From: Streptomyces sp. SCUT-3
Lineage (GTDB): Bacteria; Actinomycetota; Actinomycetes; Streptomycetales; Streptomycetaceae
Direction: 5' to 3'
Assembly: GCF_014083985.1 (NCBI RefSeq)
Contig: NZ_CP046907.1
Location: 4,502,501 to 4,566,500, forward strand
DNA: 64,000 nucleotides
Under the pieces are notes generated by a model. It did not search any database. It was not told the DNA's origin and saw only the letters and a list, made by a program, of their open reading frames with translations. This document shows, one piece after another, positions 7,993-47,508 of this stretch. Position 1 is the first letter of the stretch; the number at the start of each line of letters is the position of its first letter. Both the position numbers and the translations under genes were made by a program.

Positions 7993-8799
7993 TCAGTGCA
8001 CGTCCGTCACCAGCACGTCCACCTGCCAGGGACGGCCCGCCCGCTGCGGCGCGGAGGCCTCCACCCGGTAGCCCAGGCCCTCCAGCGTCTCCACCAGCTC
8101 CTGCGGGCCGGCCGGCTCGGCGCCCGACACCAGCAGGTCGCGGGTCAGCCGTCCCTTGGTCGCCTTGTTGAAGTGGCTGACCACCGACCGCTTCTCCACC
8201 CCGTCGACCACCTTCACCTGCAGCACCCGCACTGCCGCCGTGCGCCCGGCGACCTCGCCCCCGGGCTTCCACGCGGCCGCGTACGCGGCCGAGCGCAGGT
8301 CCAGCACCAGGCCGCTCCCCGCCGCCTCCGGCATCACAGAATCCATCGGCCCGCGCCAGAACGCGCCCAGTGCCCCCGTCCCCGGGAGCTTCACGCCCAT
8401 CGGGCACCGGTAGGACGGGACCTCGTCCGTCACCCGCAGCGCCCCCCACAGCCCGGAGAAGACCAGCAGCGACCGCGCCGCCCGCTCCGCGGCCGCGCCG
8501 TCCAGCGACCCCAGGCCGAGCGCGTCGTACAGCACGCCGGTGTACAGCCGACCGGCCGGCACGGTCGGGGCCCCGCGCAGTCCGGCGTTCTTGGCGACCT
8601 CGCCGCGCAGCCCCTCGCTCAGCCCCAGCACCTCCCGGGCCTTGTCCCCGTCGCCCGAGCACAGGCCGACCAGCTCCTCCAGCACCGTGGACCGCGCCTC
8701 GTTCAGCCCGGGCAGCGACAGTCCCTCCAGCCCCGGGGACAGGGCCGGGCCGGCCCCTCCGGAGGCCTTCCCCTCGGACGGCGGAAGCAGGACGAGCAC
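7993..8799 (-). CDS. yaaA: YaaA-like peroxide stress protein (DUF328/UPF0246)
   Basis: Encodes 268 residues from a GTG start with AGGAG upstream. The N-terminus VLVLLPPSEGKASGG is the signature of the YaaA family, as are LYTGVLYDALGL, LVFSGLWGALRVTDEVPSYR and the C-terminal SHFNKATKGRLTRDLL. The E. coli protein lowers free intracellular iron during peroxide stress and binds DNA through a helix-hairpin-helix-like cleft; transfer of that role here is inference from family membership. It is a single-gene unit convergent with the DUF5996 gene. Confidence 0.92.
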   Translation of the reverse strand: MLVLLPPSEGKASGGAGPALSPGLEGLSLPGLNEARSTVLEELVGLCSGDGDKAREVLGLSEGLRGEVAKNAGLRGAPTVPAGRLYTGVLYDALGLGSLDGAAAERAARSLLVFSGLWGALRVTDEVPSYRCPMGVKLPGTGALGAFWRGPMDSVMPEAAGSGLVLDLRSAAYAAAWKPGGEVAGRTAAVRVLQVKVVDGVEKRSVVSHFNKATKGRLTRDLLVSGAEPAGPQELVETLEGLGYRVEASAPQRAGRPWQVDVLVTDVH

Positions 8800-9027
8800 G
8801 GCGGATCTCCTCGGGCGGTGGGCGACGGTGCGGCGCGCGGGGCGCCGACCGGCAAGGATAGGCCGCCCCGCGGCAGGTCCCGCAGCGTGCCCCGGCCCGT
8901 CCCCCGCGGCCGCATTTCCTGTCGACGTCCGTCGCCGTGTGCCACGATCGAGTGGAACGATCTCCTTTCCCGAACCGCGACCGTCCCCGGTCCGACAACG
9001 GCCCCGACCACAGGGAGGGGCGTGAGG

Positions 9028-9114
9028 ATGAGCGCCATGGCACACGAGCCGCTCACGCGGGAGGACGTCCTGCTGGAGGGCTTCCTGGCCCTGGACACCT
9101 CCGGGCTCGGCTGA
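9028..9114 (+). pseudogene. Truncated remnant of a Uma2-family endonuclease gene
   Basis: A reading frame of 28 codons starts at ATG 9028 (or 9037) behind AGGGAGGGG and encodes MAHEPLTREDVLLEGFLALDT before diverging to SGLG and a stop. The matching stretch is how I recall many Streptomyces Uma2-like (DUF820) restriction-endonuclease-fold proteins beginning. The remaining roughly 160 residues of such a protein are absent; rnpB begins about 100 bases downstream. It looks like the 5-prime stub left after a deletion. I rely on memory of the family N-terminus, so the call is moderate. Confidence 0.6.
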
Positions 9115-9202
9115 CTCGGCGGCGGTCCGCCGGGGTGGTCCGACAGGGCGGTCCGGCGGGGCGCCCGGCGGGTGATCCGCCGCCCCTCCCGGCGGGTAGC
9201 AT
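9115..9202 (+). promoter_or_regulatory. rnpB promoter region
   Basis: TAGCAT at 9197-9202 is a good -10 hexamer placed eight bases before the predicted 5-prime end of RNase P RNA at 9211. The preceding 80 bases consist of GGTCCGNCGGGG-like imperfect repeats and hold no gene. Confidence 0.5.
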
Positions 9203-9210
9203 GGGCGGCA

Positions 9211-9620
9211 CGGCGGACGAGCCGGCCGGGCGGCCGCGTCGGGGTCTTCGGGCCCCGCCGAGGAACGTCCGGGCTCCACAGGGCAGGGTGGTGGGTAACG
9301 CCCACCCGGGGTGACCCGCGGGACAGTGCCACAGAAAACAGACCGCCGGGGGCCTCGGCCCCCGGTAAGGGTGAAACGGTGGTGTAAGAGACCACCAGTG
9401 CCCAGGGTGACCTGGGCAGCTAGGTAAACCCCACCCGGAGCAAGGTCAAGAGGAGCGCCGCGAGGTGCTCTGCGCGGACGTTCGAGGGCTGCCCGCCCGA
9501 GTCCGCGGGTAGACCGCACGAGGCTGTCGGCAACGGCAGCCCTAGATGGATGGCCGTCTCCCGACGGGCCGCGAGGCCCGCCGGTGACAGAACCCGGCGT
9601 ACAGGCCGACTCGTCCGCCG
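9211..9620 (+). ncRNA. rnpB: RNase P RNA, class A
   Basis: The catalytic RNA that matures tRNA 5-prime ends. The ends CGGCGGACGAG and CTCGTCCGCCG pair as helix P1. The universally conserved blocks are present: GAGGAACGTCCGGGCTCCAC (P4 5-prime strand and CR-I) near 9260-9280, ACAGAAAACAGACCGCC (CR-II/III) near 9331-9347, GGTAAGGGTGAAACGGTG-like CR-III sequence and the 3-prime GACAGAACCCGGCGTACAGG (CR-V). The length of about 410 nt fits the actinobacterial A type. It is followed by a strong hairpin terminator. Confidence 0.97.
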
Positions 9621-18816: not shown

Positions 18817-19779
18817 TCAGCGGGTCCGCAGGCGCCGCTGGTTGTAGCGGTCGGCGGCTCGGTCGCCCAGCACGGTGAGGCGGTCGCGCAGGCGGGACGG
18901 CGACGCGGCCGCCGCCTCCGCGCCCTCCTCCTTGTGCGGGTCCGTGCCGCGGGGCATGACCCGCGCCGCCAGCGCGGAGACCCGGGAGACCGTGGCGGGG
19001 GCCACCCCGTGCGCCAGGGAGGCGGCCCTGGTCCACGGGGTCAGCATCAGCAGGGTGCGCCGCCGCCGCACCGCGCGGACGATCCGGGCGGCCGCGCGCT
19101 CGGCGTCCATCGACAGCAGAGGCATGGACGCCAGCGCCGAGAACCAGCCGTACTCGCGCCGCGACGGCCCGCCGAACCGGGCGTGCAGGTGGGAGCCGGT
19201 GCGCATCAGCCCGGGGAAGACCGAGGTCACGCTGACCCCCTGCGGGCCCAGTTCGGCCCGCAGCCCCTCCGAGAGCGCCCCGGCGGCGAACTTGGCGCAG
19301 GTGTAGGGCAGCAGGTGCGGCACGGGGACCCGCCCGCCGATCGAACTGATCACCGCGATCCGCCCGCCCGCCGGACTGCGGCGCAGCAGCGGCAGCGCGT
19401 GCAGCACCGGGTACAGGGCGCCGTAGAACATCGTGTCCATGGCGTCGCGGAAGTCCTCCGTGCGCTGGGCCTCCAACGGCGCGACCTGGATCACCCCGGC
19501 GTTGGCGATCATCACGTCGATCCCGCCGAACTCGCCCTCGACGCGCACCACCGCCTCGCGCACCTCGTCCTCGTCGCGCACGTCGCACGCCACCGGCAGC
19601 ACCTCGACGCCCTCCGCGCGCAGCTGCCGGGCCGCCGCCTCCAGCGATCTCGGGTCGCGTCCCCACACCGACACCGAACAGCCCGCCCGGCCCAGCTCGC
19701 GCGCGATCAGCAGTCCCAGCCCGCGGGACCCGCCGGTGACCACGGCGGTCAGACCGCCCATGTCTCCCGTACCGCCCAT
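18817..19779 (-). CDS. SDR-family oxidoreductase
   Basis: Encodes 320 residues from ATG 19779 with GAGGAGG upstream. Classical short-chain dehydrogenase motifs are present: TGGSRGLGLLIAREL for cofactor binding, CDVRDEDE, NAGVIQ, Ser in VISSIGGRV and the YTCAKFA Tyr-x3-Lys pair. Residues beyond about 225 form an extension (ARIVRAVRRRRTLLMLTPWTR and a basic, helical tail) seen in membrane-associated SDRs. The substrate is unknown. It is divergent from a small conserved gene. Confidence 0.93.
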   Translation of the reverse strand: MGGTGDMGGLTAVVTGGSRGLGLLIARELGRAGCSVSVWGRDPRSLEAAARQLRAEGVEVLPVACDVRDEDEVREAVVRVEGEFGGIDVMIANAGVIQVAPLEAQRTEDFRDAMDTMFYGALYPVLHALPLLRRSPAGGRIAVISSIGGRVPVPHLLPYTCAKFAAGALSEGLRAELGPQGVSVTSVFPGLMRTGSHLHARFGGPSRREYGWFSALASMPLLSMDAERAAARIVRAVRRRRTLLMLTPWTRAASLAHGVAPATVSRVSALAARVMPRGTDPHKEEGAEAAAASPSRLRDRLTVLGDRAADRYNQRRLRTR

Positions 19780-20003
19780 GGCGGCCTCCTCGTGTCGGTG
19801 CCTGCCCGTGCCCGCCCGGCGCCCGCGGCCGTCCCGGGGGCACGGGGCCCGGGGCACGAGCGGCCGCGGGCGGTGCGCGGCCCTTCGCCGTGCTCCTGCC
19901 CGCGCAGAACACCGGTGCACCCGGTTTTCGCCCCGATTGCCGGGGTATGGGCTGCGGGCACAGGATGGTCCCGAGGGCAGTCCCGCCCATGAGGAGGCGT
20001 GCC

Positions 20004-20210
20004 ATGAGCAGTGAAACGAGCAACGACGAGACGAACCTGAGCGTCTTCCGCACCCCGGACAGCAAGCTGCACACGGGGAGCGAGAACCCGATCGACCCCG
20101 AGGACCTCGTGCGCGCCTCCGGGCGCGAGCCCACCCCCGAGCGGCTCGCCCGGGCCGCCAAGCTCCTCGAGGAGGAGGGCCCGTCCGCAGTCGAGCGGTA
20201 TCTGCCCTGA
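20004..20210 (+). CDS. Small conserved actinobacterial protein
   Basis: Encodes 68 residues from an ATG preceded by GAGGAGG. The protein is acidic and hydrophilic, with the segment HTGSENPIDPEDLVRASGREPTPE followed by a helix, RLARAAKLLEEEGPSAVERYLP. No membrane segment, cysteine or known motif is visible. I recall similar small proteins in other streptomycetes, but no function is known to me. Confidence 0.7.
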   Translation: MSSETSNDETNLSVFRTPDSKLHTGSENPIDPEDLVRASGREPTPERLARAAKLLEEEGPSAVERYLP

Positions 20211-20346
20211 GGGCGTGACCGCATCCCGGGCGCCGGCCGGGACCGCCGCAGCAGCGGCCCCGGCCGGCGGTCGTCCCCGGGTCAGGACGCCCGCGAGGCG
20301 GGAGCGCCCGGACGGGCAGGCATGCGACGAACGGCGCCTGCGGCGG

Positions 20347-21543
20347 GTGCCGCGACCCGAGTGCGGAGGGACGACCATCACCACCACCACCGACCCCGAT
20401 CCCGGCAGAGCGCCCGGCCCCCGTCGGCCCGTGCTGCGGCGGGGGAGCGCGGAGGAGGCGGGGCTCGACCCCGGCGGCCTCGCCGCGCTCGTCGACGGCC
20501 TGGCCGCCCACCTCGTCCCCGGCCCGGGGAGGCCGCGTCCGTGGTGCGCGGGGGCCGTCGTCCTGGCCGGGCGCGGCGGCACCGTCGTCCTGGAGGAGGC
20601 CCTCGGCCACGCCTTCCGCTACACCGCCTACGACGAGGCCACCGACACCGGTGTGGAGGCGCCCCCGGAGGAGTGGGTGCCGGCGACCGTCGGCACGGTC
20701 TTCGACATCGCCTCGCTGACCAAGCCGTTCACCGCGCTCGTCGCCGTCCGGCACGCGCTGCTCGGCGACCTCGGCCTCGACGACCCGGTGGCCCGGCACC
20801 TGCCGTCCTTCTCCCGAGCGCGCGAGGCCGGGATCACCGTCCGCCACCTGCTCACCCACACCTCCGGCCTGCGCCCGGAACTGCCCCTGTACGAGGCGGG
20901 GACGGCCGCGGAGCGGCTGCGGATGCTGCGCGACGAGGCCCCGCTGCACGCTCCGGGAACCGCCGTCGTCTACTCGGACCTGAACATGGTCCTCCTGCAG
21001 CTGCTGCTGGAGGAGGTCACCGGGCGGGGCCTGGACGCGCTGGTGGCGGAGGAGGTCACCGGGCCCCTGGGCATGCGCTCCACCCGCTTCGTCCCGCCCG
21101 CCTCCTGGCGTGCGCGCACAGCCGCCACCGAGGACCAGCGCCGGCCCTGGGCCCGGGCGGACCGGGGCATGCTGCGCGGCGAGGTCCACGACGAGAACGC
21201 CCACGCCCTGGGCGGGGTCGCCGGCCATGCGGGGCTGTTCTCCACCGCGCGGGACCTGGCGCTGCTGTGCCGCGGCCTGCTCGACGGCGGGCCGGCCGCC
21301 GACCTCGTGCTCGGGGAGGGGCTCGGCCTCGAACTCGACCGCCCCTGGTACATGGGGGAGCTTTCGGGCCCGCGCACCGCCGGGCACACCGGATTCACCG
21401 GCACCTCCCTGGTCCTCGACCCGGTGCGGGACGTCTTCCTGGTGCTGCTGGCCAACTCGGTGCACCCGGTGCGCTCGTGGCGCAGCGGCAGCGTCCCCCG
21501 CGCGACGGCGGCCACACACCTGGCCCGCGCGTGCCTGCCGTGA
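20347..21543 (+). CDS. Serine hydrolase of the beta-lactamase class C / esterase family
   Basis: The frame codes for a penicillin-binding-like serine hydrolase. SLTK in FDIASLTKPFTALVAVRH is the SxxK nucleophile motif, YSDLN in VVYSDLNMVLL the Tyr motif, and HTGFTGTS the third motif. Such proteins are esterases, peptidases or lactamases acting on unknown substrates; no signal peptide is visible. The start is uncertain. GTG 20347 has no ribosome site. A perfect GGAGGG (20365-20370) sits six bases before an ATC codon at 20377, where homologous sequence appears to begin. An earlier GTG at 20215 would add an unrelated low-complexity leader. Confidence 0.85.
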   Translation: MPRPECGGTTITTTTDPDPGRAPGPRRPVLRRGSAEEAGLDPGGLAALVDGLAAHLVPGPGRPRPWCAGAVVLAGRGGTVVLEEALGHAFRYTAYDEATDTGVEAPPEEWVPATVGTVFDIASLTKPFTALVAVRHALLGDLGLDDPVARHLPSFSRAREAGITVRHLLTHTSGLRPELPLYEAGTAAERLRMLRDEAPLHAPGTAVVYSDLNMVLLQLLLEEVTGRGLDALVAEEVTGPLGMRSTRFVPPASWRARTAATEDQRRPWARADRGMLRGEVHDENAHALGGVAGHAGLFSTARDLALLCRGLLDGGPAADLVLGEGLGLELDRPWYMGELSGPRTAGHTGFTGTSLVLDPVRDVFLVLLANSVHPVRSWRSGSVPRATAATHLARACLP

Positions 21544-21602
21544 CGGGGCTGCGCCTGCCGTGACGGCTGTGCCCGCCATGACGGCTGCGCCTGCCGTGAC
21601 GG
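21531..21602. repeat. Four tandem copies of an 18-20-bp unit spanning a stop codon
   Basis: TGCCTGCCGTGACGG and its variants recur with TGACGG at 21541, 21561, 21579 and 21597. The first copy contains the last codons and stop of the serine hydrolase gene, so the array looks like duplication of the gene end. The remainder of the gap to 21804 holds no other feature. Confidence 0.75.
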
Positions 21603-21804
21603 CCCGTGTCGCCGCGGCAGCGGCCCGGGCCGACCGGTGGCCCTCCCGGCACCCCGGCACCGGTTCCTCCTCCCGTTCCCTCCCCGCCGGCACCCGTCCC
21701 GCACTGTCCCTGTTTCCGCATAAGCCCAGGCCGGGGCCGGGGTCCGTCCGCCCGTGTGAGACGTTGGGGCGGTACGGGGCACGGTTCGAGAGAAGGGGAC
21801 CCGC

Positions 21805-22734
21805 ATGGCACGACCGGCCACCGCGTCCGCTGCTTCCGCGGCAGGCGCCCCGGCCGCCGACGACGGCCGGGGACGACAGGGCGGGGCAGCGCTGCTGGTG
21901 CTCGGCGGGGCGCTGTCCACGCAGTTCGGCGCCGCCGTCGCCGCGCTGCTCTTCCCGGCGGCGGGGCCCCTGGGAGTGGTCGTGCTCCGGCTGGCCGTCG
22001 CGGCCGTCGTCCTGATGGTGCTGGTCCGGCCGCGGCTGCGCGGGCGCAGCCGGGCGGACTGGGGGATCGTCGCCGCCTACGGCCTGGTCCTGGCGGGCAT
22101 GAACGCCACGATCTACCAGGCGATCGAACGGGTGCCGCTGGGCGTCGCGGTGACGCTGGAGTTCCTGGGGCCGCTCGCCCTCGCCGTGGTGATGTCCCGC
22201 CGCCCGCTGGACGCCGTGTGGGTGGTCCTCGCCGGGGCCGGGGTCCTGCTGCTGGCCCGCGCCGAGTCCGGCGGCGGGCACGGAGGGGCCGGGGGCGGAC
22301 TCGACCCGGTCGGGGTGGCCTTCGCCCTGGCCGCCGCCGTCTGCTGGGCCGGCTACATCCTGCTGGCCGCGCGGGCGGGCGCCCGCTTCCCCGGTACCGA
22401 CGGCCTGGCCCTGGCCATGACGGTCGGCGCCCTCGCCGTCCTGCCGCTGGGCGTCGCCGACGCGGGCGCCGCCCTCGTCGAGCCGCGGGTGCTTGCGCTG
22501 GGGGCCGCGGTGGCGCTGCTGTCCTCCGTCCTGCCCTACACGCTGGAGCTGTTCTCGCTGCGGATCCTGTCCACGGGGACGTTCGGGATCCTGATGAGCC
22601 TGGGCCCGGCCCTCGCGGCCCTGGCCGGGTGGCTGGTGCTGGGCCAGGCCCTGGCCTGGCAGCAGACCGCGGCGATCGTCATGGTCGTCCTCGCCGGCGC
22701 CGGCTCCGTCCGCTTCTCCCGCCCGCCCTCCTGA
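21805..22734 (+). CDS. EamA/DMT-family transporter (RhtA-like)
   Basis: Encodes 309 residues from an ATG preceded by AGAAGGGGACCC. After a 28-residue Ala/Gly-rich lead, ten hydrophobic segments follow in two homologous halves of the drug/metabolite transporter fold. LGGALSTQFGAAVAALLFPAAGPLGVVVLRL and GMNATIYQAIERVPLGVAVTLEFLGPL are characteristic of the RhtA branch, which exports threonine and homoserine in E. coli. Substrate is inferred only to be an amino acid or small metabolite. A Gly-rich cytosolic loop lies near residue 160. Confidence 0.92.
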   Translation: MARPATASAASAAGAPAADDGRGRQGGAALLVLGGALSTQFGAAVAALLFPAAGPLGVVVLRLAVAAVVLMVLVRPRLRGRSRADWGIVAAYGLVLAGMNATIYQAIERVPLGVAVTLEFLGPLALAVVMSRRPLDAVWVVLAGAGVLLLARAESGGGHGGAGGGLDPVGVAFALAAAVCWAGYILLAARAGARFPGTDGLALAMTVGALAVLPLGVADAGAALVEPRVLALGAAVALLSSVLPYTLELFSLRILSTGTFGILMSLGPALAALAGWLVLGQALAWQQTAAIVMVVLAGAGSVRFSRPPS

Positions 22735-22744
22735 GAGGGCGGGC
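22721..22744. terminator. Hairpin overlapping the EamA stop codon
   Basis: A perfect 10-bp stem, GCCCGCCCTC/GAGGGCGGGC with loop CTGA, contains the stop codon in its loop and arm. It separates convergent genes. Confidence 0.65.
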
Positions 22745-22777
22745 GTGGCCCGATGCCCGTTTCCCGATCGGGGAGGC

Positions 22778-25429
22778 TCAGCTGCGGCGGCCTCCTCCTC
22801 CGCCACCGCCCGGACTCGTGCCGCTGTTCCCGGAGGTCACGCACCCGGTGCAGGGTCCGGTCCCCTGCTGGAGATACCGGTGCTGGTTCGCCAGGTCGAC
22901 CACCTGCGCCATCGAGGGCTCCTCGACAGGAATGCCGATGCCGAACCGGGCGTAGAAGGCGAGCATGCCGGCGTCGGCACGTTCCACCGCCTCCTGTGTC
23001 CTGCCGTACGCCACCGAAGCCAGGTTCCTGACATCGATGCGGACGAGCCTGCCGCCGTCGGGCGGGGCTTGGCCGGTCCTCTCGGCCCACCGGAGGAAGA
23101 CCTTCTTCACCGGGCCGTCCTCCACCAGCCCGCCCAAGTACTCCTTGAGGATCTGCACGGCCCCGTTGTCTCCCAGGTCGGGGATGTCGAAGGTGCGGGT
23201 GATCGCCAGGGAGGCGAGCTCGGCGAACCGGTCGGCCTGCGCCTCCCGTTCTTCGGCGCGCTGCTGGCCCTCGTCGAGCTGCTCGAGCTGACCTGTGACG
23301 TCCTCGGCCTCCGACACTTCCGCGGGTTGCGGCGGGTCCGGGTCGTCGAGGCCGAGCGTGGCTGCCTGGAACCGGCCGACCTGCCGCGCTGTCTCCAAAG
23401 CCGTCCGGTTCACGGGTCCTCCGGCCGGCGAAGGGGCGGCCCGGTTCACGGCCACCACCACAGCCCTCAGCCGGGCAGCGGCCCGGGGGTGCGTCGTGAC
23501 GTACTGGCGGATCGCCTCGTAGGCGTCCGCAGCGCCCTCGGCGTACTGCCGGCGCTGCACCTCGAACGCGTACCTGTGAGCCAACGGTTTCTTCCACGTC
23601 CCCTCGGACACCGGAGCCAGAACGACGGCGAACAGCAGGGCGACCATGAGTCCGACGTTGATCCCGGTGAGGGACCGCCGTCCGAAGTTGACGAAGGCGC
23701 CCAGCGGCAACCGGGCTTCGCCGAAGCGGGCCGGCCGCAACCGCTGTCTGATCCGCGTAACACGGTCGGGCCGGCGCACCACGGCGTAGCTGCCGACGGC
23801 CAGCAAGGTGTACGCCACCAGCCAGTACAGCCAGTGCACTTCGGTCAGTCCCTGAATCCGTTCCATCACCCTGCGTGTGGCAGCGACTTGAGCCGGCGAG
23901 AACGACAGTGCGTTGGCCAGCCACACCACGAGCAGCGCAAGCACCAGGCCGAGTTCCACGGAGAGGACGATGTCGGCCACCGCCTTCACCGTCGGCCGCG
24001 TGGAGTCCTTCATCTTCCGCCAGCCGCGCCAGGACAGCCCGATCGCCAGCGGGAAGAACAGCCCGGCGGCCGGGGCCGTGGTCAGTACGTCGCCGCGAAC
24101 GAGCTGCTGGGCGGCGAGGGCGACCAGCGCCATTCCGGGAAGGTCGGGAAGGTGGCGCACGACCCAGCGCTCGGACTCACTGCACCGCTTCACCGCGAGC
24201 AGCAGCGCCCAGCCGCCGAAGAAGAGCAGCGTCACCAACGGGACTAACCGGGAGGGAAACTCGCGGAGCAGGAAGAAGCCGAGCGCCACCACCAGGTCGA
24301 CAACACCGAGTGCGAGGGCGCCTGCCGCAGCGTACCGGCGATGTCTTGTCCAGCGGGCCAGCGTTTTGACAAGCGTCTCGCCCGCCGCTGTCGACGCAGC
24401 CGCGAGGGCCAGCCCGAAAACCGCCCCGGAGAATCCTCCCAGGACTGCCCCGAGGGCGGCCAGTAAGAAATCCCCCGCACCCTCGACCTCGTTCCGCGTG
24501 CCCAAGCGCCATGCCGCCCATGCGGCCAGACCGAACGTGACGTACAGCCCCATGAGCGCGAGGGTTTCGCTCATGTCCTCGTCGTTGCGGGCAGCCGGAA
24601 CCGGTGCGGCCGGCGCCCTGCGCCCGTGCAGCCGACGGGCGACATCGAGGAAGACCTCGGCATTGGGTACTCGGTGGAGGGGCTTTGCGTAATGCGACGG
24701 AAAGTCGTTCCCTCGCGAGGCAATGACGAGGCCGTCCCTGTCCGTGAGTGCGACCGAGCCGACGTCCTCCCAGGAAGTGAAGTCGTCCCGGCCGTGGCCG
24801 CGCCGCACGGTCAACCCGTCCTGCCTCACCACGAGGTTCCCGAAGGCGACTTCACCGCCGCTCAGGACCGCTGCGACAGCCGGCCGCGTCCGGGACTCCC
24901 GGACCCCCCGCCGGATCGCCGAACCCCACTCCCTCTCGTCCGGGAACTGGACGCCCCTGATCACCGTCCGGGTACGCATTCCCCGGATCCTGTCCCCGGA
25001 CAGTGGGGGCGTGCGGTAAGCAGCTGCGATCGTGATGACAGTTCCCTCGGAATTGGCCAGCTTGTAGCGATTCCAGCCGTCCATGAAGAGAACGGTCGAC
25101 GACCACGGAAAGACCACTTCCGACCCGTCGGCCGTGACCGCGACCAGACCGTGCTCGTAAAGGTGCATCCCCCTTGCGGGCCTTCGGTACCGCAGCACCC
25201 TGACGGCGGACAGTCCCAGTACCACCAGGCCGGACGTCACCGCGATCGAGGCAGCGCGCGCCAGGCCGAGGATCTCACCGAGAAGGAACACCAGCAGGAG
25301 GACCAGGGCCGACAAAGGCACCAGGGACAGTAACTGCAGCGCATACCTGGCAGGTCCCCAGCGCTGCGGGTGGTAGGTGCGGCGATGGCGCCCCAGGCCC
25401 GGGCGCTCCGCACTGTCCTGTGCCTCCAT
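22778..25429 (-). CDS. Large polytopic membrane protein of unknown function with three TTA codons
   Basis: Encodes 883 residues from ATG 25429, with GGGAGGG about nine bases upstream. Two N-terminal helices (about 26-72) are followed by a soluble region of about 200 residues (HLYEHGLVAVTADGSEVVFPW and later QDGLTVRRGHGRDDFTSWEDV) that resembles DUF6585/PH-like domains. About nine more membrane helices lie between about 290 and 615. A soluble C-terminal domain of some 260 residues ends in CTGC and a Gly-rich tail. TTA leucine codons occur at 25331-25333, 24464-24466 and 24245-24247. Third-position bias is weaker and G+C lower than in neighbours, which suggests transfer. I do not recognise the full architecture. 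A partner gene is not evident. Confidence 0.8.
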   Translation of the reverse strand: MEAQDSAERPGLGRHRRTYHPQRWGPARYALQLLSLVPLSALVLLLVFLLGEILGLARAASIAVTSGLVVLGLSAVRVLRYRRPARGMHLYEHGLVAVTADGSEVVFPWSSTVLFMDGWNRYKLANSEGTVITIAAAYRTPPLSGDRIRGMRTRTVIRGVQFPDEREWGSAIRRGVRESRTRPAVAAVLSGGEVAFGNLVVRQDGLTVRRGHGRDDFTSWEDVGSVALTDRDGLVIASRGNDFPSHYAKPLHRVPNAEVFLDVARRLHGRRAPAAPVPAARNDEDMSETLALMGLYVTFGLAAWAAWRLGTRNEVEGAGDFLLAALGAVLGGFSGAVFGLALAAASTAAGETLVKTLARWTRHRRYAAAGALALGVVDLVVALGFFLLREFPSRLVPLVTLLFFGGWALLLAVKRCSESERWVVRHLPDLPGMALVALAAQQLVRGDVLTTAPAAGLFFPLAIGLSWRGWRKMKDSTRPTVKAVADIVLSVELGLVLALLVVWLANALSFSPAQVAATRRVMERIQGLTEVHWLYWLVAYTLLAVGSYAVVRRPDRVTRIRQRLRPARFGEARLPLGAFVNFGRRSLTGINVGLMVALLFAVVLAPVSEGTWKKPLAHRYAFEVQRRQYAEGAADAYEAIRQYVTTHPRAAARLRAVVVAVNRAAPSPAGGPVNRTALETARQVGRFQAATLGLDDPDPPQPAEVSEAEDVTGQLEQLDEGQQRAEEREAQADRFAELASLAITRTFDIPDLGDNGAVQILKEYLGGLVEDGPVKKVFLRWAERTGQAPPDGGRLVRIDVRNLASVAYGRTQEAVERADAGMLAFYARFGIGIPVEEPSMAQVVDLANQHRYLQQGTGPCTGCVTSGNSGTSPGGGGGGGRRS

Positions 25430-25801
25430 CAGCCCGTCCCTCCCGTGGTGCGCACCTTGCGACACCTGTTGTAGAACCAAGTCGATTTCCGCGGCACGGT
25501 AGCAGCGTCGCCGGTGCCGGGCCCGCCGCGCCGTCCGGATTCCCCGGGTTCCGGACTCCAGAGCCAATCCTTCGATTCTCAGGTATTCGTTCGCCCGGCC
25601 TTCGAATCCCAGAGTTCTTGCTTCCCTGTCTTTGGATCATGGATCCCGGGTGCCGATTCCCCGCGATGCCGTCAGGAACCCGTCAAGATCGTCGGCCGGG
25701 ACGTTAGCGCTGTGTCAATGCCCTCTCCGTGCGGCCTCCCGGGGATGTGTCCTGGTACTCGCGGGCCCTGACGCCCGACAACGCGTCCCGAGGAGCAACC
25801 G
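25430..25801. promoter_or_regulatory. A/T-richer divergent region before kdp and the large membrane gene
   Basis: This 372-base gap holds no convincing gene. Its base composition is clearly less G/C-rich than its surroundings. A 13-base motif, CTTCGATTCTCAG / CTTCGAATCCCAG, is repeated at 25571 and 25601, inside a run of TTC/GGAC-type imperfect repeats (about 25545-25620). A KdpE site and kdp promoter are expected in 25690-25785, but I cannot point to hexamers with confidence. Confidence 0.4.
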
Positions 25802-45240: not shown

Positions 45241-46641
45241 TCAGGGCTGCTCCTGCCGCTCCCGGCGCAGCTCCCGCATGCGCACCGCGTGCTCGTCGGT
45301 GCGGGCGTCGTAGGACATCAGCTTCGGCAGTGCGGCGGCCAGCAGGCCGACCGAGGCCGCGCACATCAGGCCGCCGGACCAGAACGAGGCCCGCACTCCG
45401 ACCAGCGAGGCCGCCGTGCCCGCCCGCACCTGGCCGCCCTGCGGGCCGACGGTGAAGCTGAGAAGCTCCAACCCGGCCAACCTGCCGCGCAGTTCGTCGG
45501 GAATCGTCTGGTTCCACAGGGTGGACCGGAACAGTCCGCTGACCATGTCGGCACCGCCGGCCGCAGTCAGGCACAGCAGCACCAGCCACACGTTCGACGT
45601 CCACCCCGCCGCGGCCACGGCCAGCCCCCAGGCGGCAGCCCCGTACGCCACCGCCCGGCCGTGCCGGTGCACCCGCGAGGTCCACCCGCTGGTCATGCCG
45701 ACCAGCATCGACCCCACCGCCCCGGCGCCGTACATCAGCCCCAACGACCACGGCGCGTCCAGCCGGTCGGCCAGGAACGGGAAGAGCGCGTTCGGGAAGG
45801 CGAAGAACATCGCGGCCGCGTCGACCGCGTAGGTGCCCAGCAGCTCCGGACGGCTCCGGGCGTAGCGCACCCCCTCGGCGATCCTCCTCAGCGACGGCTT
45901 CTCCCCGCCCGTCGGCGGGGGCGAGGTCCGCAGCCGCAGCAGCAGCACCAGCGACACCGCGAAGGAGACCACGTCCAGGGCGTAGGCCGTCTCCACCCCG
46001 CCGGTGGCCACCAGCACCCCGGCCAGGGAGGGGCCCACGATCGCGCCGATCTGCCAGCGGAGGGAGTTCAGAGCGGCGGCCGCGGTGAGCCGGTCGTGTG
46101 CGACGACCTGCGGGACCAGCGCGTCCAGGGAAGGCCGCTGCAGGCCGTCCAGGGCGGACAGCAGGGCGACGAACAGGTACAGCGGCCACAGCATCGGCTC
46201 CGGCAGCAGGGCGTTGACCAGCAGCATCACCGACAGCAGCCCCAGGCCCAGCTCGGAGGCCAGCACCAGCCGGCGGCGGTCGACCGAGTCCGCCAGCGCC
46301 CCGCCCCACAGGCCGAAGACGATCGTCGGCACGATCTCCGCCGCGGCGATCAGGCCGACCGCCAGGTAGGAGCCGGTCATCTCCTTGACCTGGAGGGGGA
46401 CGGCGACGTAGGTCAGGAAACCGCCCAGCACCGACACCGCCCCGGCCGACCACAGCAGCCGGTAGTCGCGGGAGGACCGCAGGGGGGACAGGTCGGGGAG
46501 CATCCCGCGCAGCGGCGACCGTCTCCCCGGAGGGGGACCGTCGTCGTCCGGGGCGCCACCGTCCGCCGGGGCTTCGCCCACGGGGGTGCCCTCCACGGGG
46601 GTGCCCTCCGCGGGGCCGTCGCACACAGGGCCGCTGCTCAC
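45241..46641 (-). CDS. MFS transporter (enterobactin exporter EntS-like)
   Basis: Encodes 466 residues if GTG 46641 is the start. The membrane core begins SPLRSSRDYRLLWSAGAVSVLGGFLTYVA and has twelve helices; WGGALADSVDRRRLVLASELGL and FPNALFPFLADRLDAPWSLGL are typical of the EntS/MFS_3 group of small-molecule exporters. The first 46 residues are a Pro/Glu/Gly-rich lead with short repeats (EGTPVEGTPVGEAP). The alternative ATG 46503 would remove that lead but has no ribosome site. Substrate unknown. It is divergent from the F420 reductase gene. Confidence 0.9.
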   Translation of the reverse strand: MSSGPVCDGPAEGTPVEGTPVGEAPADGGAPDDDGPPPGRRSPLRGMLPDLSPLRSSRDYRLLWSAGAVSVLGGFLTYVAVPLQVKEMTGSYLAVGLIAAAEIVPTIVFGLWGGALADSVDRRRLVLASELGLGLLSVMLLVNALLPEPMLWPLYLFVALLSALDGLQRPSLDALVPQVVAHDRLTAAAALNSLRWQIGAIVGPSLAGVLVATGGVETAYALDVVSFAVSLVLLLRLRTSPPPTGGEKPSLRRIAEGVRYARSRPELLGTYAVDAAAMFFAFPNALFPFLADRLDAPWSLGLMYGAGAVGSMLVGMTSGWTSRVHRHGRAVAYGAAAWGLAVAAAGWTSNVWLVLLCLTAAGGADMVSGLFRSTLWNQTIPDELRGRLAGLELLSFTVGPQGGQVRAGTAASLVGVRASFWSGGLMCAASVGLLAAALPKLMSYDARTDEHAVRMRELRRERQEQP

Positions 46642-46710
46642 GGCCGCCCATGCTCCGCCACGGCGCCGACGGCGGGCAAACGGTTTTACGCCGGGGCCCG
46701 GCGCGCCCGG

Positions 46711-46793
46711 CGGTCGCAGCCGGTCGCAGCCGGTCACGGCCGTTCTCACAGACCGGGAGCCGGGCTGCGATCCGCCGCGCCCGCTGGCAGGAT
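46711..46793 (+). promoter_or_regulatory. Leaderless promoter of the F420 reductase gene with 10-bp repeats
   Basis: CTGCGA (46765-46770) and CAGGAT (46788-46793) are 17 bases apart and the -10 ends seven bases before ATG 46801, with no ribosome site, as in leaderless Streptomyces genes. Upstream, CGGTCGCAGC is repeated at 46711, 46721 and, with changes, 46731. Confidence 0.55.
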
Positions 46794-46800
46794 CACCCCC

Positions 46801-47508
46801 ATGACTACTCCTGACGCCGCGACCAACGACGTTCCCCAGCCCGGCCCCCACGACCTGCCCGACGTGTCCGGCCTCGTCGTCGGTGTCCTCGGCGGCACCG
46901 GCCCGCAGGGCCGCGGCCTGGCCTACCGGCTCGCCCGCGCCGGGCAGAAGGTGGTCCTCGGCTCCCGCGACGCCGGGCGGGCGAAGGCCGCCGCCGACGA
47001 ACTGGGCCTGGGGATCGAGGGCGCGGACAACGCCGAGTGCGCCCGCCGCAGCGACGTGGTGATCGTGGCCGTGCCGTGGGACGGGCACCGGGCCACCCTG
47101 GAGGCCCTGCGCGAGGACCTCGCCGGCAAGATCGTCGTCGACTGCGTCAACCCGCTGGGCTTCGACAAGAAGGGCGCCTACGCGCTCGAACCGGAGGAGG
47201 GCAGCGCCGCCGAGCAGGCCGCCGCGATCCTGACCGACTCCCGGGTCACCGCCGCGTTCCACCACCTGTCCGCGGTCCTGCTGCAGGACCCGGAGATCGA
47301 GCGGATCGACACCGACGTGATGGTGCTCGGCGAGAAGCGCGCGGACACCGACGTCGTCCAGGCCCTGGCCGGGCGCATCCCCGGCATGCGCGGGATCTTC
47401 GCCGGACGGCTGCGCAACGCCCACCAGGTCGAGTCCCTGGTGGCCAACCTGATCTCCGTCAACCGCCGCTACAAGGCCCACGCCGGGCTGCGCATCACCG
47501 ACGTCTGA
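46801..47508 (+). CDS. npdG: NADPH-dependent F420 reductase
   Basis: Encodes 235 residues. After a 24-residue lead the Rossmann fold begins LVVGVLGGTGPQGRGLAYRLARAGQKVVLGSRD; the Ser-Arg after the second strand favours NADPH. VVIVAVPWDGHRATLEAL and VVDCVNPLGFDKKGAYAL match F420H2:NADP oxidoreductases. It transfers hydride between F420 and NADP(H), supplying reduced F420 for cofactor-dependent reductases or NADPH for biosynthesis. Leaderless start as described for its promoter. Confidence 0.94.
   Translation: MTTPDAATNDVPQPGPHDLPDVSGLVVGVLGGTGPQGRGLAYRLARAGQKVVLGSRDAGRAKAAADELGLGIEGADNAECARRSDVVIVAVPWDGHRATLEALREDLAGKIVVDCVNPLGFDKKGAYALEPEEGSAAEQAAAILTDSRVTAAFHHLSAVLLQDPEIERIDTDVMVLGEKRADTDVVQALAGRIPGMRGIFAGRLRNAHQVESLVANLISVNRRYKAHAGLRITDV

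Follow-up and report, generated by a model that had tools for sequence, protein, structure and literature searches.

The closest described counterparts of the gene considered here are the bldA-dependent TTA genes of Streptomyces. Between 51 and 505 such genes are found in each Streptomyces genome; 92% of TTA ORFs have a single TTA codon, the codons are mostly poorly conserved, and the genes are located towards the chromosome ends (PMC10327506). The interdomain TTA of streptomycete adpA is universal (PMC4255298). For the protein itself, the nearest described relations are the stand-alone DUF6585 proteins of the Streptomycetaceae and the bacterial PH domains, for which oligomerisation, pore or transporter roles and a part in envelope stress have been proposed when they occur in membrane proteins (PMC2817789). 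Here we analyse a window of Streptomyces sp. SCUT-3 (the whole stretch of DNA under study, 64,000 nucleotides) in which one gene, predicted to encode a polytopic membrane protein of 883 amino acids, has three TTA codons. We put at roughly two in three the probability that this is an accessory gene acquired singly, encoding an uncharacterised envelope protein, whose dependence on bldA is a consequence of codons set mainly by drift.

The gene (22778..25429, minus strand; window coordinates are used unless the contig is named) is defined by an open frame of 883 residues with no internal stops, an RBS-like GGGAGGG, and an ATG start that is backed by alignment with 15 homologues. Its three in-frame TTA codons, all on the minus strand, lie at 25331..25333 (Leu33), 24464..24466 (Leu322) and 24245..24247 (Leu395), in agreement with the number and positions given in a preliminary description. 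That description had noticed no TTA in the other genes and proposed a count across the window. The 43 other called genes of at least 100 codons (codon-usage gene call) contain 0 TTA in 16,576 codons; the observation was thus correct for these neighbors, which do not carry the codon at a similar density. The gene caller penalises rare codons (with a cap), and TTA genes may therefore be somewhat under-called. Two mechanically defined ORFs, 7993-9519 and 18817-22806, have one TTA each, outside the genes truly encoded there.

The host genome (6.08 Mb, one contig) falls within the Streptomycetaceae but outside the GTDB genus Streptomyces. We sampled it with twenty 20-kb stretches spread genome-wide plus the window, 464 kb in all, which hold 366 genes of at least 99 amino acids. 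The rarity of TTA that had been assumed is borne out: six of the 366 genes carry one, with 8 TTA codons altogether, and more than one is seen only in the 883-aa gene. These figures and those published for Streptomyces are the same in kind. A tRNA-Leu(UAA) gene is present at positions 3756989-3757072 of the contig (C1), the sole UAA among the nine longest tRNA genes examined (Leu, Ser, Tyr). The genome also has an adpA-like locus (about C1:4018375-4021578, minus strand) with an apparent interdomain TTA; its frame and the following orn-like frame are each spread across several frames in the assembly, through either indel errors or decay.

At the rate of the genome sample, the chance of at least three TTA among the 106 leucines of the 883-aa gene is ~1e-5, and relative to the rate of its homologues it is 0.003; its leucine codons comprise 3 TTA and 10 TTG against 0 CTA and 51 CTG (Fisher P 0.007). 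By these figures TTA is more frequent here than drift by itself would predict; all three P-values are post hoc, because the gene was chosen for its TTA codons. An excess of this kind (three observed, 0.04-0.27 expected, and CTA at zero) is what one might predict for a selected bldA checkpoint, in which UUA codons hold back the protein until tRNA-Leu(UAA) becomes available, in late growth or at sporulation. The position of the first TTA close to the start, at codon 33, would suit such a checkpoint, as would the TTA at the interdomain place of the host's adpA-like locus. The homologues tell against it. Every aligned homologue has another codon at all three TTA columns: CTG or GTG at Leu33, CTG or CTC at Leu322, and CTG, TTC or GCC at Leu395. 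Where homologues have TTA codons of their own (0-1 each, most having none), these occupy unrelated positions. The three codons therefore appear to have been born in this lineage and not to mark a conserved bldA checkpoint, and a conserved developmental role is not supported. Moreover, the 883-aa gene is codon-unadapted along its whole length, with numerous other rare codons. We consider a selected checkpoint unlikely, if still deserving of attention. Drift under weak codon selection is our first choice for the origin of the TTA codons, and the gene resembles an ordinary acquisition with poor codon adaptation rather than a conserved developmental switch.

The lower G+C that had been reported for the gene is confirmed (69.3%, versus 74.5% in the window), and the accompanying check of codon adaptation and GC3 gave likewise low values. 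GC3 is 0.848, versus a mean of 0.948 (sd 0.033) in the genome sample, and codon adaptation is 0.43, the minimum of the window (median 0.78). GC3 across the long-form homologues spans 0.84-0.95; weak codon adaptation is thus a habit of the family. The second-lowest codon adaptation among the called genes of the window belongs to 45241-47424 (CAI 0.56, GC3 0.89), whose start is perhaps over-extended.

Low codon adaptation would also be seen in a decaying or cryptic gene that, being unexpressed, is free to build up rare codons, and at least one homologue, that of Streptomyces sp. HmicA12, is interrupted. The break in HmicA12 falls between the PH-like and membrane parts and leaves two adjacent ORFs. 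In the window, however, the 883-codon frame is intact, dN is below dS in comparison with homologues (0.21/0.47), and the upstream block described below is retained. Of 248 residues that are otherwise invariant, just 17 are changed, as against 34 of 265 in the sister protein. Decay is, on these grounds, most improbable.

Full-length homologues are 56%–68% identical and patchily distributed across Streptomyces. The long form is found in ten of 395 family genomes, the window's own genome counted, and in a scan of 84,980 species every one of the 13 long forms recovered belonged to Streptomyces, the three short forms to Actinacidiphila. The long form is absent from the host's 60 nearest relatives, of which one carries a short form and three show a match confined to the N-terminal region. 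One long-form copy resides on a 578-kb linear plasmid, and in complete assemblies the copies lie largely towards contig ends. In the protein tree the window copy groups with that of Streptomyces sp. HNM0574 (support 96/99), to which it is 61% identical, on a deep sister branch; the highest identity, 68%, is to Streptomyces sp. cf386. Given its foreign composition and patchy distribution, the gene has probably been acquired, and the evidence supports an accessory gene of foreign origin that has been transferred. A near-identical donor copy was not found among the genomes compared, where 68% is the best identity, although a collection may simply not include one; with so distant a best relative and so deep a sister branch, no donor can be named. 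The acquisition had been called recent. Acquisition is supported by composition and distribution, but its recency is not: the nearest relative is 68% identical, and most members of the family share the low GC3. Phage records, IMG/VR and PHROGs gave zero matches that would point to a phage origin.

The genes on either side have normal codon use: an EamA transporter gene (21805-22734, plus strand) and the kdpFAB operon (25882 onwards, plus strand). By Pfam, no mobility genes are adjacent to the 883-aa gene, and no long direct repeats were found at its borders. The EamA–kdp adjacency was not found in relatives, where the kdp flank is not syntenic, which makes an empty-site comparison impossible. 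The homologous loci share no neighbors except within one set of close Streptomyces and the G346/KN37 pair, and conserved neighbors that would suggest a function were not found. An operon with the downstream 1,329-aa ORF (18817-22806) was considered and rejected, as that ORF is largely antisense to the EamA gene, a beta-lactamase-fold hydrolase and a small ORF; only its terminal part is a real gene (SDR).

The best-conserved stretch of upstream DNA consists of a −10-like block and a dyad, and the gene therefore probably carries its own promoter. The block, an extended −10-like TGCTACCGT at 25496..25504 (minus strand), lies 75 nt before the ATG; its consensus, TGCTAnCGT, recurs upstream of 11 of the 14 long forms, some 75-104 nt ahead of the start codon. 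The dyad, CGAC-N17-GTCG (25460..25484, minus strand), has nearly fixed spacing and corresponds to CAAC-N19-GTTG in homologues (27 nt, after the −10-like block). It is operator-like or a hairpin: both sides have changed in one of its four pairs, in one sequence, and this amount of covariation does not decide between the two. Judged from sequence, the promoter-like block probably moves with the gene. A regulon sharing the block was sought and dismissed, as matches to the core in the host genome are no more frequent than those of a reversed control.

Eleven transmembrane helices are predicted consistently by hydropathy, the AF2 helices and the positive-inside rule; two precede a cytoplasmic region and nine follow it. 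The cytoplasmic region runs from residue 82 to about 285-287 (24575..25186, minus strand), and within it residues 190-275 are predicted, from Pfam, AF2 and structural alignment, to be bacterial-PH-like and related to DUF6585. Stand-alone proteins of DUF6585 size align with residues 1-280, and five of 14 homologues match the Pfam DUF6585 model (PF20226; best E 1.7e-6), although the window protein does not. In the AF2 model, residues 190-275 (pLDDT about 66-82) align structurally with many PH, PTB and FERM-F3 domains, the highest Z being 8.6. Foldseek listed the bacterial PH domain 3dcx, and PH-like matches there have E above 0.01; a Foldseek search with the whole model, itself of low confidence (pLDDT 52), returned no match at E 0.001. 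No solved structure matched by sequence. Because nine helices follow the cytoplasmic region, residues 609-883 (22781..23605, minus strand) are expected on the outside, a placement based on the positive-inside rule and alignment; modelled alone, this predicted helical domain is all-helical at low confidence (pLDDT 47.5). The C-terminus (22781-22852) carries an invariant C860-x-G862-C863; after this motif, long forms have a Gly-rich tail that closes with RR, and short forms a His/Glu/Gly-rich tail. PADLOC models of known anti-phage defence were matched by none of 16 family members (E 0.1). The least weak guess at the job of the protein, drawn from a low-confidence model, is a possible envelope-associated channel or scaffold; we regard it as tentative, with the odds against it.

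The topology may also bear on the codons themselves. Leu33, Leu322 and Leu395 begin the hydropathy segments 33-51, 322-340 and 395-413, and TTA encodes three of the four leucines that start a segment (P 0.008 with AF2 helix starts). UUA might then act as a local pause that aids membrane insertion, each codon standing where a predicted transmembrane segment begins. This pattern was spotted post hoc, however, the edges of hydropathy segments favor Leu, and the TTA codons of homologues are located elsewhere; the idea is hardly credible.

If the gene was acquired singly and its codons were set mainly by drift, as we prefer, the sequence of events may be envisaged as follows. A free-standing gene would move among the Streptomycetaceae, bringing its own promoter region, and weak codon selection on it would have allowed TTA codons to rise in a particular lineage. 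A likely consequence is that the full-length protein could not be completed unless charged tRNA-Leu(UAA) is present. The protein would sit in the plasma membrane with the PH-like domain inside, probably for protein–protein contact or oligomerisation, and the outer helical domain, ending in CxGC, could provide a disulfide or a metal site. If the codons are neutral, the gene is a clean example that TTA alone should not mean developmental control, the TTA sites being private to one lineage and the gene family widespread without them. If they are selected, it is a rare and directly testable bldA checkpoint gained after transfer. The stronger form of that proposal, in which TTA has been selected in this lineage, a mobile envelope protein is strictly dependent on tRNA-Leu(UAA), and a checkpoint has been imposed afresh after transfer, strikes us as decidedly unlikely. 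Either way, the locus draws attention to a family, so far undescribed, of polytopic PH-like envelope proteins whose genes have a putative portable promoter.

How does this locus compare with known systems? It resembles the bldA-dependent accessory TTA genes of Streptomyces (PMC10327506; PMC4255298; PMC2000904) in that TTA is rare, the gene is accessory and a tRNA-Leu(UAA) is present, and also in the poor conservation of the TTA codons. It differs in having three TTA where 92% of such genes have one, in being neither a regulator nor biosynthetic, and in residing in a host outside GTDB Streptomyces. Stand-alone DUF6585 (PF20226) proteins of Streptomycetaceae (about 270-335 aa) align with the N-terminal 280 residues at 24%–33% identity, whereas the 883-aa protein adds to this part nine transmembrane helices as well as an extracytoplasmic domain of 275 residues. 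With bacterial PH domains (PHb; DUF1696, PMC2817789) it has in common a predicted PH-like fold that includes a C-terminal helix and lies on the cytoplasmic face of a membrane protein, a likeness that comes from a model region of moderate confidence alone and not from demonstrated sequence similarity. The Actinacidiphila short forms (A. rubida, A. guanduensis and A. yanglinensis; about 740-780 aa) have no counterpart of the N-terminal PH-like region of the 883-aa protein but share its C-terminal half and the C-x-G-C, at 27%–29% identity.
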